The notes under the pieces are model-generated. The model was not told where the DNA came from. It did not search any database and saw only the letters and a program-made list of their open reading frames with translations. DNA of 64,000 nucleotides from NCBI RefSeq assembly GCF_025370755.1, contig NZ_JAMXFC010000002.1:62001-126000 (forward strand), written 5' to 3'. Position 1 is the first letter of the stretch. Each line of letters opens with the position of its first letter. This DNA comes from Laspinema sp. D2d (GTDB lineage: Bacteria > Cyanobacteriota > Cyanobacteriia > Cyanobacteriales > Laspinemataceae). Shown here one piece after another: positions 58,350 through 64,000 of this stretch. Position numbers and translations under genes: made by a program.

Positions 58350-58649
58350 TGCAAAAACCTCCCTCAGTTGGTTCTATATTTAGCTTATTCTGGAAATAAG
58401 CAGAGGAAGGTGATAAAACCGAGGCCAAGATATGATTGCGATCGCACATTTGGGGTACCAGGCGCACTGACAGAACTCACCAAATAAGTATTTCCTACTG
58501 ATGACGACTCCCTATGGACCAGGTTATGCTAAAACCAGCTAACAAGTGGGACTTTGGTGCGACTTCCGGAAATAACCTGTAAAGTTAGACTCTACAAGTC
58601 GTCCCCTCACTCCCCTTGTTAGCGTCTTTTAAAACAAAACTGCTTTAAC
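58350..58649. other. 300-bp divergent spacer with a possible structured RNA
   Basis: Between the divergent 35-codon gene and the TROVE-like gene. Contains complementary segments described in the ncRNA entry. No other gene. Confidence 0.5.
58503..58603 (+). ncRNA. possible structured RNA upstream of the TROVE-like gene
   Basis: 58503-58509 pairs perfectly with 58597-58603, and 58520-58527 with 58572-58579, giving a two-tier stem of 7 and 8 bp around an internal loop, 101 nt in all. TROVE proteins are known to bind Y RNAs, often encoded nearby, of about this size. The pairing could be chance; no conserved Y-RNA sequence is recognised. Confidence 0.25.
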
Positions 58650-59642
58650 GTGGACGCCCACTGGTCAAAACAGGTTTCCCAAATTGAACGGCAAGATTTA
58701 GTCATGTTTATTAATGCCTGTCTCTCTTGTACGGGACAGCGCGAATTTTATAGTAATCAGAACAGTCAAGGTGTTTCTATTGATTTTTTGCACGACTATA
58801 TTTTAGGCAATTATCGATTATTATACGCCCGCACCTTAGCCGCAGGCATCAATCATTTTAATCGCGCTCAAATCATTTTAAAACTGTTGGCAACGGGACG
58901 AGATACCTCACCGGAACATCGCCAGGAGGAAGGGGCATTAATTGCCGCTGCCTTAAATGAATTGCCGCCACAACGGGCGTGGAAACTTTTAGCAGAAATT
59001 CGCCGCAGGGGAATCAATAACCGGCGCAGTCGGGCGATTGTGAGAGATTATATCCAGTCTCGCCGGGACATCAGCTTTCAAGCGGTGAAATATCGCTCGA
59101 AATTACGGGCAGTCGCCATTCATAATCATCTCAAATTAGAGACGGAACTCGCAGCATTTTTATTCGACCCGACGAAAATCAAAGCCTATCAAACGAAGAT
59201 TTTCGAGGATTTTCGGAAAGCAAAGTATAATAAAGAGGCGATTTATGCTTTACCCTTAACTGTTGCTGAAGGATTTGCAGCACAACAGGGAATTAAACGT
59301 GAGATTTTCCTGGATCGCATTCAGCAACAGATGACACCCGGGGAAAAATTACGGTTGCAAAAAACAGCCAATCGGGGGAAACAGGAAATTGCGGTAGATT
59401 TAGGCCAGATGCCCTTGACAAAATTAGCGCTTTATGTGCTATCGTTATCCCGGGCGGAACGAGGCGATCGCATTGCTATCCTAGATGAAGCCCTCGACAG
59501 CGCCGCCCGCCGCACTTTACAACGCTCTCCCCTGCACCTGGGACGCGTCGCCACAGTCCTTGATTGCAGTTATTCCGCCTCCGGTTCCTCAGAAAAGCGG
59601 CGGCGTCCTCTGGGGATTGCCTTAGCTGCCCATTACTCCTAA
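58650..59642 (+). CDS. TROVE-like/vWA protein, N-terminal part (gene broken by frameshift)
   Basis: GTG start, 330 residues to a premature TAA. The helical repeat part (about 20-290) resembles a TROVE domain of Ro60/Rsr (ISFQAVKYRSK near residue 145), and the end begins a vWA domain: VLDCSYSAS is the metal-binding DxSxS. The following frame continues the domain without loss (next entry), so a one-base deletion near 59636 is indicated. Ro60/Rsr proteins bind Y RNA and misfolded RNA. TROVE assignment is by eye and tentative; the vWA part is clearer. Confidence 0.7.
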   Translation: MDAHWSKQVSQIERQDLVMFINACLSCTGQREFYSNQNSQGVSIDFLHDYILGNYRLLYARTLAAGINHFNRAQIILKLLATGRDTSPEHRQEEGALIAAALNELPPQRAWKLLAEIRRRGINNRRSRAIVRDYIQSRRDISFQAVKYRSKLRAVAIHNHLKLETELAAFLFDPTKIKAYQTKIFEDFRKAKYNKEAIYALPLTVAEGFAAQQGIKREIFLDRIQQQMTPGEKLRLQKTANRGKQEIAVDLGQMPLTKLALYVLSLSRAERGDRIAILDEALDSAARRTLQRSPLHLGRVATVLDCSYSASGSSEKRRRPLGIALAAHYS

Positions 59643-60094
59643 AAGCCGCAGCGCAAGAGTATCGGGCATTTTGGACCGTTCCAGGAAGCGAGGCGCTGTT
59701 AGTCACCCCCCGGGGACAAACGGACTTAGCAACGCCGGTATTAGATGCCTTGGAATGGGGTGCGGATTTAGTGGCGATCGTCTCCGATGGTTGGGAAAAC
59801 GACCCACCCCGAGGTGCGGCACAAGTGCTGGAAATTTATCGCACCAAGTTAGACATTCAGGGACGGACCGCTATTGTTCATTGTAATCCGGTGTTTGATT
59901 CCGATGACTTTTTATTACGCAGTCTCACTCCCGCGATTCCTACGGTGGGATTGCGGGAAGCGGAGGATTTGCCCACCCTGCTGGGATTTGCCCGCTTTGC
60001 CGAGGGAACGGCGGAATTAGCGGATTTGGAAGCATATCTCGCAGCTAAAGTGAGACAATTGTTGGGGGAGAAGCGGGAAGCGAATGAGCAATAA
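59636..60094 (+). CDS. vWA domain C-terminal part, frame-shifted continuation
   Basis: Reading the -1 frame from 59636 gives LLKAAAQEY, then RGQTDLATPVLDAL (second MIDAS residue, Thr) and AIVSDGWENDP (third, Asp), completing the vWA metal site begun in the preceding frame. No ATG lies at the join (first in-frame codon is a TTG at 59564), so independent translation is unlikely. The sum would be one protein of about 480 residues. The end overlaps the next gene by 11 nt, as in an intact operon. Confidence 0.7.
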   Translation, partial: LLKAAAQEYRAFWTVPGSEALLVTPRGQTDLATPVLDALEWGADLVAIVSDGWENDPPRGAAQVLEIYRTKLDIQGRTAIVHCNPVFDSDDFLLRSLTPAIPTVGLREAEDLPTLLGFARFAEGTAELADLEAYLAAKVRQLLGEKREANEQ

Positions 60095-61268
60095 AATATC
60101 ATTGTTAGAGAAATTATCCTTGCGCGGGTTAGAGATTGCGCCATCCCAGGTGTATGGAGGGGTTCGGTTAGTGCCTTTGTTGCGATCGCATTTCCGCCCG
60201 GATTTACGCCTGCGACAGCGCCGTTACCGGGAAGATTTCTCCTCGGTGGCAGTGGAGGGGAAGATGCAGAACCCGGAGATGAGCTATATTTCCTATATTC
60301 CACATGGGTTAGTGTTGTCCTGGGACGAGGGGACAACGGATGTGGCATTCGGGACACAATTGCAGGGACGGGATGGCAAAGTGGTGGATTATGGTTGTGC
60401 GAAAGTGCGACTAATGCACCGGATGGTGAAACGGGAAAACGAGAATTCCCTGAGATTTCTGCCCATGCATTTAGCAATGGAGGGATTTTTGGGGATGTTC
60501 TTTTCGGGACCAGCGATCGCATGGCAGGAGTATTCCCGGCAAGCGCTATCGGAGGGATTGGGTTCGCGGGGGGAGGTGTCATACAGTGGACGGGCAGTCG
60601 GGGGATTTGCCGACGCCTTGCGGGTGTTTGAAATTCACGAGAATCAAGTGGGAGTGTTGGTGTTTGTTGCCGATGCGATCGCCTCCGCCTTTATCGTTCC
60701 CAACCCCCAAGATTATCGCGCCTTACATAGCAGTTTGTTGGAAGATTTTTATGGAGAATTGATATTTCAATATGGGTTACTTTATGATACCCCATTGCCG
60801 ATGGATGTTGCCATTGAAGCGGATAAAATCCAGAATTTGGAGGAGTTAAGGAAGGCGGTGGCTGAGATGCGATCGCACTGGGGAAAGTTTCACGGATTTA
60901 TGGCAGGGGATTTATTAGGGCGATCGTTAAAAAGTCAGCGAGTTTACACCTTAGAAACCTTTGGACTACAGCGGTTTATCACCGAACTCGAACCCAAGGG
61001 AGAGAATCATATCGGAGAGGCGATTATTTCAGAAGACGGAGAGATTCAATATTTAAAAACCTATCGCTTATCCGCCGCCCAAACCCGCCGGGTCTATTTG
61101 TTAAGTCAGTTAGCAAAACATGACTGGAATTTAGAAATAACCGCCCGGGAATTGGGACAGAGTAAGGATGAATTAGTCTTGCGGTTGGACAAGGCAGGGT
61201 TTGGGTATTTGTTGAAGCAAAATCTGTTAGAAGTAGCGCGGAAGAATCAGAAGAAAGGCAGGAGGTAG
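60084..61268 (+). CDS. partner protein with C-terminal Fis-type helix-turn-helix
   Basis: 394 residues. I do not firmly recognise the first 330; the opening GGVRLVPLLRSHF and the mixed alpha/beta pattern recall ARPP-type domains reported alongside vWA/TROVE genes, but I cannot confirm this. The C-terminal 50 residues (LEITARELGQSKDELVLRLDKAG) form a Fis-type HTH. The ATG overlaps the vWA reading by 11 nt, so translation is coupled. Likely a DNA- or RNA-directed partner of the TROVE-like protein. Confidence 0.75.
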   Translation: MSNKISLLEKLSLRGLEIAPSQVYGGVRLVPLLRSHFRPDLRLRQRRYREDFSSVAVEGKMQNPEMSYISYIPHGLVLSWDEGTTDVAFGTQLQGRDGKVVDYGCAKVRLMHRMVKRENENSLRFLPMHLAMEGFLGMFFSGPAIAWQEYSRQALSEGLGSRGEVSYSGRAVGGFADALRVFEIHENQVGVLVFVADAIASAFIVPNPQDYRALHSSLLEDFYGELIFQYGLLYDTPLPMDVAIEADKIQNLEELRKAVAEMRSHWGKFHGFMAGDLLGRSLKSQRVYTLETFGLQRFITELEPKGENHIGEAIISEDGEIQYLKTYRLSAAQTRRVYLLSQLAKHDWNLEITARELGQSKDELVLRLDKAGFGYLLKQNLLEVARKNQKKGRR

Positions 61269-61370: not shown

Positions 61371-64000
61371 CTATCGATTGATCTTCCGTAACGCATCCAA
61401 TTCCTCGGAAGTAAAGGGATTTTCACCCGCATTCAATGCCTCTACCCATCGCTGTAGTTGTTGGCCATCATTACCATAATAGGGAAAGCGTCCACGATCT
61501 AAAACGGCATGAAAATCTATTAAAGCCCCATCTATATCCCCGACCAGAGCCCTAGCAAGTCCACGACTATGTTGATATTCAATAATATCAGGCGCTAGAC
61601 TCACCGCTTGTTCACCTGCATTAAGGAAATCAGCAGTAAGGGCATCAGTAGCATTGCCATATACACAGCCATACCAGCACAGAGCATTCCAAAAGTCAGC
61701 AGAAATTAGCAAATTTGGATCAAGCTGTTGAGCATTCTGGTAAGCTGCAATTGCTTCTTTAACTTTGCCTTCCCTCACCCAACTGCGACCCTGACTCAAG
61801 ACAACCGCAGCCAAAAATTTGGGGTGTCGTGCTAATTCTGGAGAGACCCCCGTAGCTTCATGCAATCCGATAGCATTTTCCCATGTTGTACCAGTATCCC
61901 AAACCATTGCGGTAAGGTAGGCACGGCTGAGGTTGGCGCTACTGATGTCGGCACCGCTGAGGTTGGCATCGCTGAGGTTAGCACAGCTGAGGTCAGCATA
62001 ACTGAGGTTGGCACCGATGAGGTCGGCACCGATGAGGTCGGCATCGCTGAGATCGGCATAACTGAGATCGGCACCACTGATGTCGGCACGACTGAGGTTA
62101 GCACCGATGAGGTCGGCATCGCTGAGATCGGCATAACTGAGATCGGCATAACTGAGGTTGGCACGGATGACATTCGCACGGAAGACGTTCGCACGGCGGA
62201 GGTTGGCATAACTGAGGTTGGCACCGCTGAGGTCAGCATAACTGAGGTTCGCACCGCTGAGGTCAGCATAACTGAGGTTCGCACCGTTGAGGTCAGCACC
62301 GTTGAGGTTGGCACCGTTGAGGTCGGCACGGATGAGGATAGCATGGATGAGGTCGGCATCGCTGAGGTCGGCATCGCTGAGGTAGAATCCTATAATTTTG
62401 AGAAAAGCGAACACAGCGACACAATCACTGTAGCCGATAATCTGAAGCAAGCGCTGTGGTACAAACTGGTCTGTATTCGGTTCACCACAGGGATAGAAAT
62501 AGATTTTATCTTTCAGTTCATCCTGAGTTTGTGCGTAACGGTGCAACTCTAGCAGGAGAATTATCACATTCAGTCCGGTATGGAGATCCACCTGTCGCTG
62601 TCCCAATTGAGTCTCTACCACTCCCAACTGCTCCTTGAGCAGACGCATCTTAAATTGAGGCAGGGTTTCCGGTGGTGCATCGATAAACTCGCCCTCACAC
62701 CAGCGCAGATAAAAGTCCTGCAATCGTTCAAACAAGCGAATCGGCTTCACCTCTGGGTTCTTTGCCCATAATCCGGGCAGATATTGCACGATTTCTGGGG
62801 TTAACGGTCCATACCCGAGCAAATCGTAAATTTCCTTATCCATTTCTTCTGTCTTTACATCGTCTTCCTCTCCGCGACGTCGGGTTACGGTCCGAGTCCA
62901 ATCTATACAACTTTCGATGAGTCGTTCGGCAAACAAAAATTCCCCAAAACTCTTGTGAGTAAACTCCACCGAACCCCCTCGGTCCCCGGAGGCCGGTTTG
63001 ATGTAGAATGCAGCCAAGAGATTATTCAACGCTTTCGGTTGTTCTAACTGGGTTTCTTTTCTAGCGTTCTCCAGTAACTCAGCCACTGGGTTATGAGTAT
63101 CCTTGAGTCGCACTTCCAACATGGCGACCCTGGCACATTCATTCCCCGACTGGACCACACATAACGCCGCCTCTGCCAGAAATCGCCGCAAATCTTCCGG
63201 TTCCAGTCCCGTCAACCGCAGATTTTCATCCTGACGCTGTTTCTCAATGATCCAGTTTACGGCTTCATCATAGATACGGATTTTTGCAGTAATTTGGTCC
63301 GAGGTTCCAACAAACATCGCGGCATTCAGTGCCTGTTCCCGGTGCATTCGCCCTAGGAGATACAGAAGTAACGGTTCTCGGGCCAGATTATCATTAATTT
63401 CTGCGGGACAAGCCTGTAAAAACTGCTGGAAATTATCCGCTTCTTGGGTTCCGACTTTATTCGCCCAGTTCTCTAACCAGATGTGGCGAATCTCGTCATC
63501 CATCGGCAAAATCGCCACTCGTTCTAACTGTTGGGTTTGGGAGAGTTGGCGATCAATTCCTTGCAATGCCAGAGGACGCCCAGTGATTAAAAAACGATGG
63601 TGGCTATGCCGTTGAAAGTCCTGGACTTGCAGCAAAAAATCCTTGAGTCCACCGCTGGCAAGTCCTTGGAGCAACAATTCATCAAACCCATCCAGCAAGA
63701 ACAAAAATCGCGTATTTTTATCCGTTAGCCAACCCGAGTCGCTCGTTACAAAATCTAAATTTTGCAGGTAAGTGTTTAAAGTTTCTGTGAGATTTCCGGC
63801 TAAAGCGCGCAACTCCCGTAACCGAATCAAAATCGGGGTAAAGTTGGGATGCCAGTTTTGCCGCACCCAGTCCGCAAACATCCGACAAAAAACGCTTTTC
63901 CCGCGTCCCGCTTCCCCCTGGATAAACAACACTTGCTTATCTTTCTTGGAGTCCTGGAGCATCATTTTCACCCAGTCCTCCAGTTGCATCGGGTCTTTGT
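61371..64000 (-). CDS. NACHT NTPase with pentapeptide and TPR repeats, 5' end outside window
   Basis: At least 875 residues; the frame stays open through the right edge, so the N-terminus is missing. The NTPase has Walker A GEAGRGKSVF and Walker B FLFLLDGFDELL, then winged-helix and helical parts. About 33 pentapeptide units (A-D/N-L-x-x) fill residues about 550-720, encoded by 15-nt DNA repeats at 61918-62390. Two or three TPR units end the protein (AIAAYQNAQQLDP). STAND NTPases of this type act as signal-triggered switches, some in phage defence. Effector domain, if any, lies beyond the window. Confidence 0.88.
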   Translation of the reverse strand, partial: KDPMQLEDWVKMMLQDSKKDKQVLFIQGEAGRGKSVFCRMFADWVRQNWHPNFTPILIRLRELRALAGNLTETLNTYLQNLDFVTSDSGWLTDKNTRFLFLLDGFDELLLQGLASGGLKDFLLQVQDFQRHSHHRFLITGRPLALQGIDRQLSQTQQLERVAILPMDDEIRHIWLENWANKVGTQEADNFQQFLQACPAEINDNLAREPLLLYLLGRMHREQALNAAMFVGTSDQITAKIRIYDEAVNWIIEKQRQDENLRLTGLEPEDLRRFLAEAALCVVQSGNECARVAMLEVRLKDTHNPVAELLENARKETQLEQPKALNNLLAAFYIKPASGDRGGSVEFTHKSFGEFLFAERLIESCIDWTRTVTRRRGEEDDVKTEEMDKEIYDLLGYGPLTPEIVQYLPGLWAKNPEVKPIRLFERLQDFYLRWCEGEFIDAPPETLPQFKMRLLKEQLGVVETQLGQRQVDLHTGLNVIILLLELHRYAQTQDELKDKIYFYPCGEPNTDQFVPQRLLQIIGYSDCVAVFAFLKIIGFYLSDADLSDADLIHAILIRADLNGANLNGADLNGANLSYADLSGANLSYADLSGANLSYANLRRANVFRANVIRANLSYADLSYADLSDADLIGANLSRADISGADLSYADLSDADLIGADLIGANLSYADLSCANLSDANLSGADISSANLSRAYLTAMVWDTGTTWENAIGLHEATGVSPELARHPKFLAAVVLSQGRSWVREGKVKEAIAAYQNAQQLDPNLLISADFWNALCWYGCVYGNATDALTADFLNAGEQAVSLAPDIIEYQHSRGLARALVGDIDGALIDFHAVLDRGRFPYYGNDGQQLQRWVEALNAGENPFTSEELDALRKINR

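Follow-up and report, generated by a model that had tools for sequence, protein, structure and literature searches.

Organization of the locus

The window, a 64,000-nucleotide stretch of the Laspinema sp. D2d genome, carries on its forward strand a unit that extends from 58501/58503 to 61268: a promoter-like element comes first, followed by a structured RNA, then a TROVE-like/vWA gene and finally an ARPP-2 gene. A preliminary description had proposed an RNA, a TROVE-like/vWA protein and a partner with a helix-turn-helix (HTH) domain between 58503 and 61268, and all three are found there. Overlap of the two genes, which it described as translationally coupled, is seen in the window (11 nt, 60084-60094); in relatives they overlap slightly or lie up to about 2 kb apart (at most about 110 nt in the majority). 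Convergent with it on the reverse strand (61371-63989) lies a gene for a NACHT NTPase carrying both pentapeptide and TPR repeats; proteins of this STAND type are found in conflict systems.

A structured RNA resembling Y RNAs

The RNA at 58538-58623 (forward strand) is structured. It scores 84.4 bits with our covariance model R1 and comprises a terminal stem of 8-9 bp, a bulged pyrimidine at 58547, a GGGA/UCCC stem that is almost invariant among the copies, a 9-bp inner stem and a distal 4-bp hairpin. Folding of the window copy alone gives z = -2.5, a single-sequence value. An alignment built with MAFFT and RNAalifold without any prior structure yields 17 pairs, 11 of which show two-sided changes. 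Among 26 copies aligned with R1, 96.5% of cells are paired, both sides have changed in 17 of the 25 pairs, and the covariation score is 0.631, compared with 0.216 for shuffled alignments and 0.06-0.13 when the partner strand is slid. A held-out set of 17 copies, drawn from 15 genomes not used in building R1 and aligned by fitting to that model, scores 0.522 versus 0.225 shuffled, with 95.5% paired; two of five measures in this set are not clearly above the shuffles (pairs with two-sided changes, 15/500; pair types, 433/500). The small RNA that had been listed as a possibility upstream of the genes is therefore backed by covariation. Two pairs are broken in the window copy, 17:68 and 20:65, the latter being unpaired also in two relatives (L050 and L052).

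No Rfam family matches 58538-58623 at gathering score. Matches obtained at relaxed E-values are at chance level and were set aside, among them a tracrRNA hit of 19 bits against a cut-off of 70. After eight terminal pairs, position 9 is a bulged pyrimidine in all 43 copies (C in 31, U in 12), the window copy having U. Ro60 binds human Y RNAs primarily at the bulged C9, and bacterial Y RNAs retain a bulged C (PMC4030889). From its sequence and predicted pairing, the RNA thus appears to resemble the Y RNAs bound by Ro60, and we refer to it as Y-RNA-like. It has in common with Y RNAs, including bacterial YrlA, an end-to-end terminal stem with one bulged pyrimidine after eight pairs and a position beside a Ro-type gene. 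Unlike them, it is only 81-86 nt long, has a single short distal hairpin, lacks an Rfam match and contains no tRNA-like module recognized by ARAGORN, a program not built for YrlA-type modules.

A divergent relative of Ro60, frameshifted in the window

The gene that follows is split between two frames on the forward strand of the window. Its 5' part (58650-59642) begins with GTG, encodes an alpha-helical ring and the start of a vWA domain with the MIDAS sequence DCSYS, and is ended by a frameshift; its 3' part (59636-60094) encodes the rest of the vWA domain in the shifted frame, tblastn showing the two to be continuous in relatives. Relatives in Oscillatoria and Laspinema have one continuous frame of 475-481 aa. 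At the site the relatives have CATTATCTCCTAAAA (or CATTATCTGCTAAAA) and the window has CATTACTCCTAAAA: between 59635 and 59636 the window lacks one T that is present in 5/5 relatives compared. The possibility of programmed frameshifting was rejected, since position 59635 shows no evident slippery heptamer and none of the close relatives is shifted, and we therefore prefer a one-base deletion. The window gene is either a true pseudogene or the product of a sequencing error.

Structure was modeled with AlphaFold2 for an intact orthologue (L013; mean pLDDT 84), not for the broken window gene. The model contains a helical-repeat ring followed by a vWA domain. All eight of its significant Foldseek matches are Ro60/TROVE proteins, as are the top 10 in VIA-align (Z 13.3-17.9, rmsd 4.5-5.4, 401-410 of 475 residues aligned); unrelated vWA domains rank below these in VIA-align and cover the C-terminal part alone. 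Profile comparison by hhalign with canonical cyanobacterial TROVE gives a probability of 95.9 and an E-value of 5.9e-9 over 381 columns. The TROVE/vWA assignment made in the preliminary description is thereby upheld with regard to the Ro60-type fold, but not with regard to a single open frame, as the frameshift had been overlooked.

Sequence models alone miss the relationship. Pfam TROVE (PF05731) does not match, and vWA_Ro60 (PF25045) reaches 11.8-13.8 bits against a cut-off of 27.7; because these scores fall under the curated detection threshold, we call the protein TROVE-like and do not assign it to the Pfam family. Scanning the single TROVE-like protein against Pfam, NCBIfam and PADLOC returned nothing useful and no known defense family. 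The TROVE-like profile did not retrieve Ro60 from PDB sequences either, which made fold comparison necessary. Two residues, K147 and H160, are invariant in 17/17 sequences and align with K170 and H187 of human Ro60, residues at the Y RNA contact; contact by H187 is documented (PMC4030889). Of the MIDAS residues, D305, S307, S309 and D380 are invariant, and position 358 is T or S.

Judged by the model, this protein branch has the TROVE fold, and the comparisons support a very divergent Ro60 relative. Similarities to Ro60/Rsr proteins (Deinococcus radiodurans Rsr, 2NVO; human Ro60; Thermus phage phiLo Ro60) include the predicted helical-repeat ring with a MIDAS-bearing vWA domain, the equivalents of K170 and H187, and the Y-like RNA encoded beside the gene. 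The TROVE-like proteins differ in being only 10-14% identical over the fold, about 60 aa shorter and paired with an ARPP protein, as well as in scoring below the Pfam threshold.

The ARPP-2 partner

The second protein (60084-61268, forward strand) matches Pfam ARPP-2 (PF22549) at 386.5 bits, far above the cut-off of 27, over residues 11-290, as had been guessed from the sequence. A Fis-like HTH is predicted at about residues 331-376. The Fis-type HTH of the preliminary description is borne out weakly, HTH_8 being detected in 5/25 members of the ARPP-2 family, relatives of the window protein, with a best E-value of 6.6e-4. The C-terminal ~70 residues are helical in the ARPP-2 model, a poor one (pLDDT 57) that found no fold match, being too poor for fold search. 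Among the 25 members, the only Pfam families above noise are ARPP-2, ARPP-1 and HTH_8, with no AAA+ sigma-54 interaction domain.

ARPP-1 matches 24 of the 25 members weakly, indicating that ARPP-2 and ARPP-1 are distantly related. ARPP-1 is known from conflict operons and has been proposed to act on ribose moieties via a conserved cysteine (PMC9503650). This cysteine is present in 8/9 aligned ARPP-1-type proteins and variable in ARPP-2, the window residue being T84, which makes a binding or regulatory role more likely for ARPP-2 than a catalytic one. Compared with the described ARPP-1 and ARPP-2 families (PF20208, PF22549), the window protein has the ARPP-2 domain with its conserved residues Q22, Q188, E183 and W147; relative to ARPP-1, window-type ARPP-2 would have lost the cysteine and gained the Fis-like HTH. 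The ARPP partners listed by Iyer et al. 2022 are ARG systems, HIRAN, WYL and a deacetylase, and TROVE is absent from the main text of that study (PMC9503650).

Three-way co-inheritance in cyanobacteria

The TROVE-like protein, the RNA and ARPP-2 are co-inherited. ARPP-2 occurs in 12 of 194 cyanobacterial genomes and the TROVE-like protein in exactly those 12 (Fisher p = 2e-19); a strong RNA match occurs in 9/194, all among the 12 carriers (chance 2.5e-13). These p-values treat the genomes as independent, though they are related by shared ancestry. Among the three remaining carriers, a divergent RNA occupies the corresponding site in two (L025 and L026), and the contig of the third (L010) ends too early. 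The pair of genes is thus kept together across cyanobacterial genomes, including five in which the TROVE-like gene and RNA are on one contig and ARPP-2 on another (G078, G101, G203, G227 and G236). The preliminary description would have been refuted by an absence of TROVE similarity in HMM or structure comparison together with a gene pair that is not conserved; both the similarity and the conservation are observed. Distances among TROVE-like proteins and among ARPP-2 proteins correlate at 0.966, a value that vertical descent could give likewise.

In a survey of 342 genomes, the RNA accompanied the ARPP-2-type TROVE branch in 15/15 held-out genomes, and ARPP-2 did so in 13/15; the TROVE-like gene is truncated or cut by a contig end in the two genomes without ARPP-2. 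Canonical Pfam TROVE occurs in 25 of the 194 genomes, 16 of which lack ARPP-2. It is also present in 9 of the 12 carriers (G018, G024, G038, G042, G078, G091, G101, G167 and G191) versus 16 of the 182 other genomes, an association that may reflect shared ancestry.

A separate transcript or a leader

At all intact loci examined, the ~84-nt RNA lies directly 5' of the TROVE-like gene, always on the same strand, and at those measured the gap to the start codon is 22-53 nt. In the window, a putative promoter, ATGACG-N18-TATGCT (58501-58530, forward strand), has a -10 box that ends 7 nt before the RNA. The ATGAC and TTA..CT positions of this element are invariant in seven members of the genus, the most distant of which (L052) has an otherwise unrelated flank. 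Tandem RNA copies occur at four places (L021, L022, G450 and G453). In another genome (G232), a second copy (L186 2816-2898, forward strand) is preceded by the same upstream box and lies ~3.6 Mb from a truncated TROVE-like gene that is adjoined by transposase-like frames; no TROVE-like or ARPP-2 match was found around this free-standing copy, in which one GGGA pair is broken. In Laspinema palackyanum (L017), which has lost the TROVE-like gene together with most of ARPP-2, the RNA carries 11-14 changes, as against 0-5 among relatives. From these sequence comparisons (the promoter-like box, the tandem and free-standing copies and the RNA decay in L. palackyanum), we favor a trans-acting RNA that depends on the TROVE-like protein.

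Mobility, decay and a second ARPP branch

The unit is mobile and has repeatedly decayed. It occurs on Nostoc plasmids, two of three of which are typed as conjugative. On two of these plasmids, XisH/XisI lie between the TROVE-like and ARPP-2 genes (L061 7234-7973 and L063 7234-7973). Broken copies recur, in the window, in G167 (by a stop codon), in L. palackyanum and in G232, G261 and G202. In G261, at the contig ends L184 and L185, ARPP-2 has two stops and a short tandem repeat appears between the RNA and the TROVE-like gene. Such patchiness, mobility and recurrent loss are typical of genes with accessory roles in stress or conflict.

More divergent TROVE-like genes lie beside ARPP-1 at six cyanobacterial loci, on the Alkaliphilus plasmid pB6464 (L123 3761-6333) and in an uncultured 462-kb jumbo phage genome, LR756500 (L124 3402-6013). 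In the 342-genome survey, ARPP-1-type TROVE-like proteins were found in 17 genomes, with a weak ARPP match in 14 and the RNA in 0/17; a search of seven ARPP-1-type loci using R1 with filters off likewise revealed no such RNA. This distribution identifies the TROVE-like protein and ARPP as the core, the RNA and HTH being specific to the ARPP-2 branch. IMG/VR scans returned no relatives of A3 or A4. Four ARPP-1-type loci (L126, L129, L130 and L131) have a repeated TGTAGTA(T/C)-like motif 5' of the TROVE-like start, in some cases after TTGACA, which may be a promoter or operator.

Discussion

We propose, with a probability of roughly 0.6, that the unit specifies a mobile ribonucleoprotein of the Ro60-Y RNA type with a dedicated sensor or regulator as partner. 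The RNA would be made from its own promoter or processed out of an operon transcript. Its terminal stem, with the bulged pyrimidine, would dock on the outer face of the ring protein, stabilizing the ring and gating the access of other RNAs, as Y RNAs do for Ro60/Rsr. Without the putative catalytic cysteine of ARPP-1 but with an acquired Fis-like HTH, ARPP-2 may act as a ligand-sensing, non-catalytic regulator that turns the unit on, most likely upon RNA or nucleotide damage. We infer in the same way that the unit may serve in RNA damage or phage conflict.

ARPP-2 would thus hold a place like that of RtcR, the regulator of the Salmonella RNA repair operon (PMC7790460; PMC8394870). A Ro-type protein, a Y RNA and a sensor-HTH regulator would be common to the present unit and the RtcR-controlled Rsr-YrlA-RtcBA operon, whereas ARPP-2 has neither CARF nor sigma-54 AAA+ domains, ARPP presumably taking the sensor's place. 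No RtcA or RtcB was found by Pfam among the window neighbors scanned. Cyanobacteria are not known to have sigma-54, which would fit an HTH regulator that lacks a sigma-54 domain.

Several other readings were weighed against this one. The RNA might be a cis-acting leader, with autoregulation by the TROVE-like protein binding to the 5' UTR of its own message and no trans-acting Y RNA involved. Its constant strand and short distance from the start codon are what such a leader would show, but tandem copies, the free-standing copy 3.6 Mb away with its conserved upstream box, the promoter-like element just ahead of the RNA and a bulged stem of the Y RNA type all speak for a separate RNA, and we consider a leader unlikely. 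Still less probable is ordinary Rsr-type RNA quality control with ARPP-2 as an unrelated passenger. In its favor, the protein is a Ro60-fold relative and canonical Rsr systems act in rRNA decay (PMC8394870), but ARPP accompanies the TROVE branch almost everywhere, across phyla and also when unlinked, while most genomes with canonical TROVE lack ARPP-2.

The unit might also be an anti-phage or plasmid-conflict device. Foreign or cleaved RNA would then be sensed by the ring-RNA particle, with ARPP as the effector or switch; this purpose is compatible with the proposed ribonucleoprotein and is possible, if on balance doubtful. The patchy, plasmid-borne distribution, the jumbo phage copy, the repeated decay in related strains and the known occurrence of ARPP-1 in conflict operons (PMC9503650) are in its favor; the lack of any match to a known defense family, the absence of a conserved nuclease or toxin gene alongside and the missing ARPP-1 cysteine in ARPP-2 are not. 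As to the window, the ring gene is frameshifted and the unit is therefore probably inactive in this particular genome. We lean toward a dead locus in this strain, given the frameshift together with the two broken RNA pairs, one of them shared with relatives, but the ARPP-2 gene is unbroken, its product sharing 92-97% identity with the closest relatives, and the single missing base could be a sequencing error.

On a broader and more tentative view, to which we give a little less than even odds, the cyanobacterial units, the Bacillota plasmids and the jumbo phage carry one hitherto undescribed class of mobile Ro60-Y RNA particle. In this class ARPP, either the enzyme-type ARPP-1 or the sensor-type ARPP-2 with an HTH and a Y-like RNA, would couple RNA-damage sensing to the ring in phage and plasmid conflict.

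Bacterial Ro60-Y RNA systems are already known; the present branch and its RNA escape Pfam TROVE and Rfam. A literature search found nothing on the pairing of TROVE-like and ARPP proteins and no functional paper on the ARPP-2 domain; because its coverage of the primary literature on bacterial Y RNAs, Rsr and RNA repair was incomplete, an earlier description may exist. With three parts so strictly co-inherited, direct tests by genetics and binding assays are easy to design. The function of Ro60 and Y RNAs is still debated, and experiments rely mainly on bacterial examples. A compact branch that is carried on plasmids and has a partner protein of its own would serve as a minimal system; it would also widen the Ro60-Y RNA partnership to include proteins missed by sequence models and would place ARPP-2 in a functional context for the first time.
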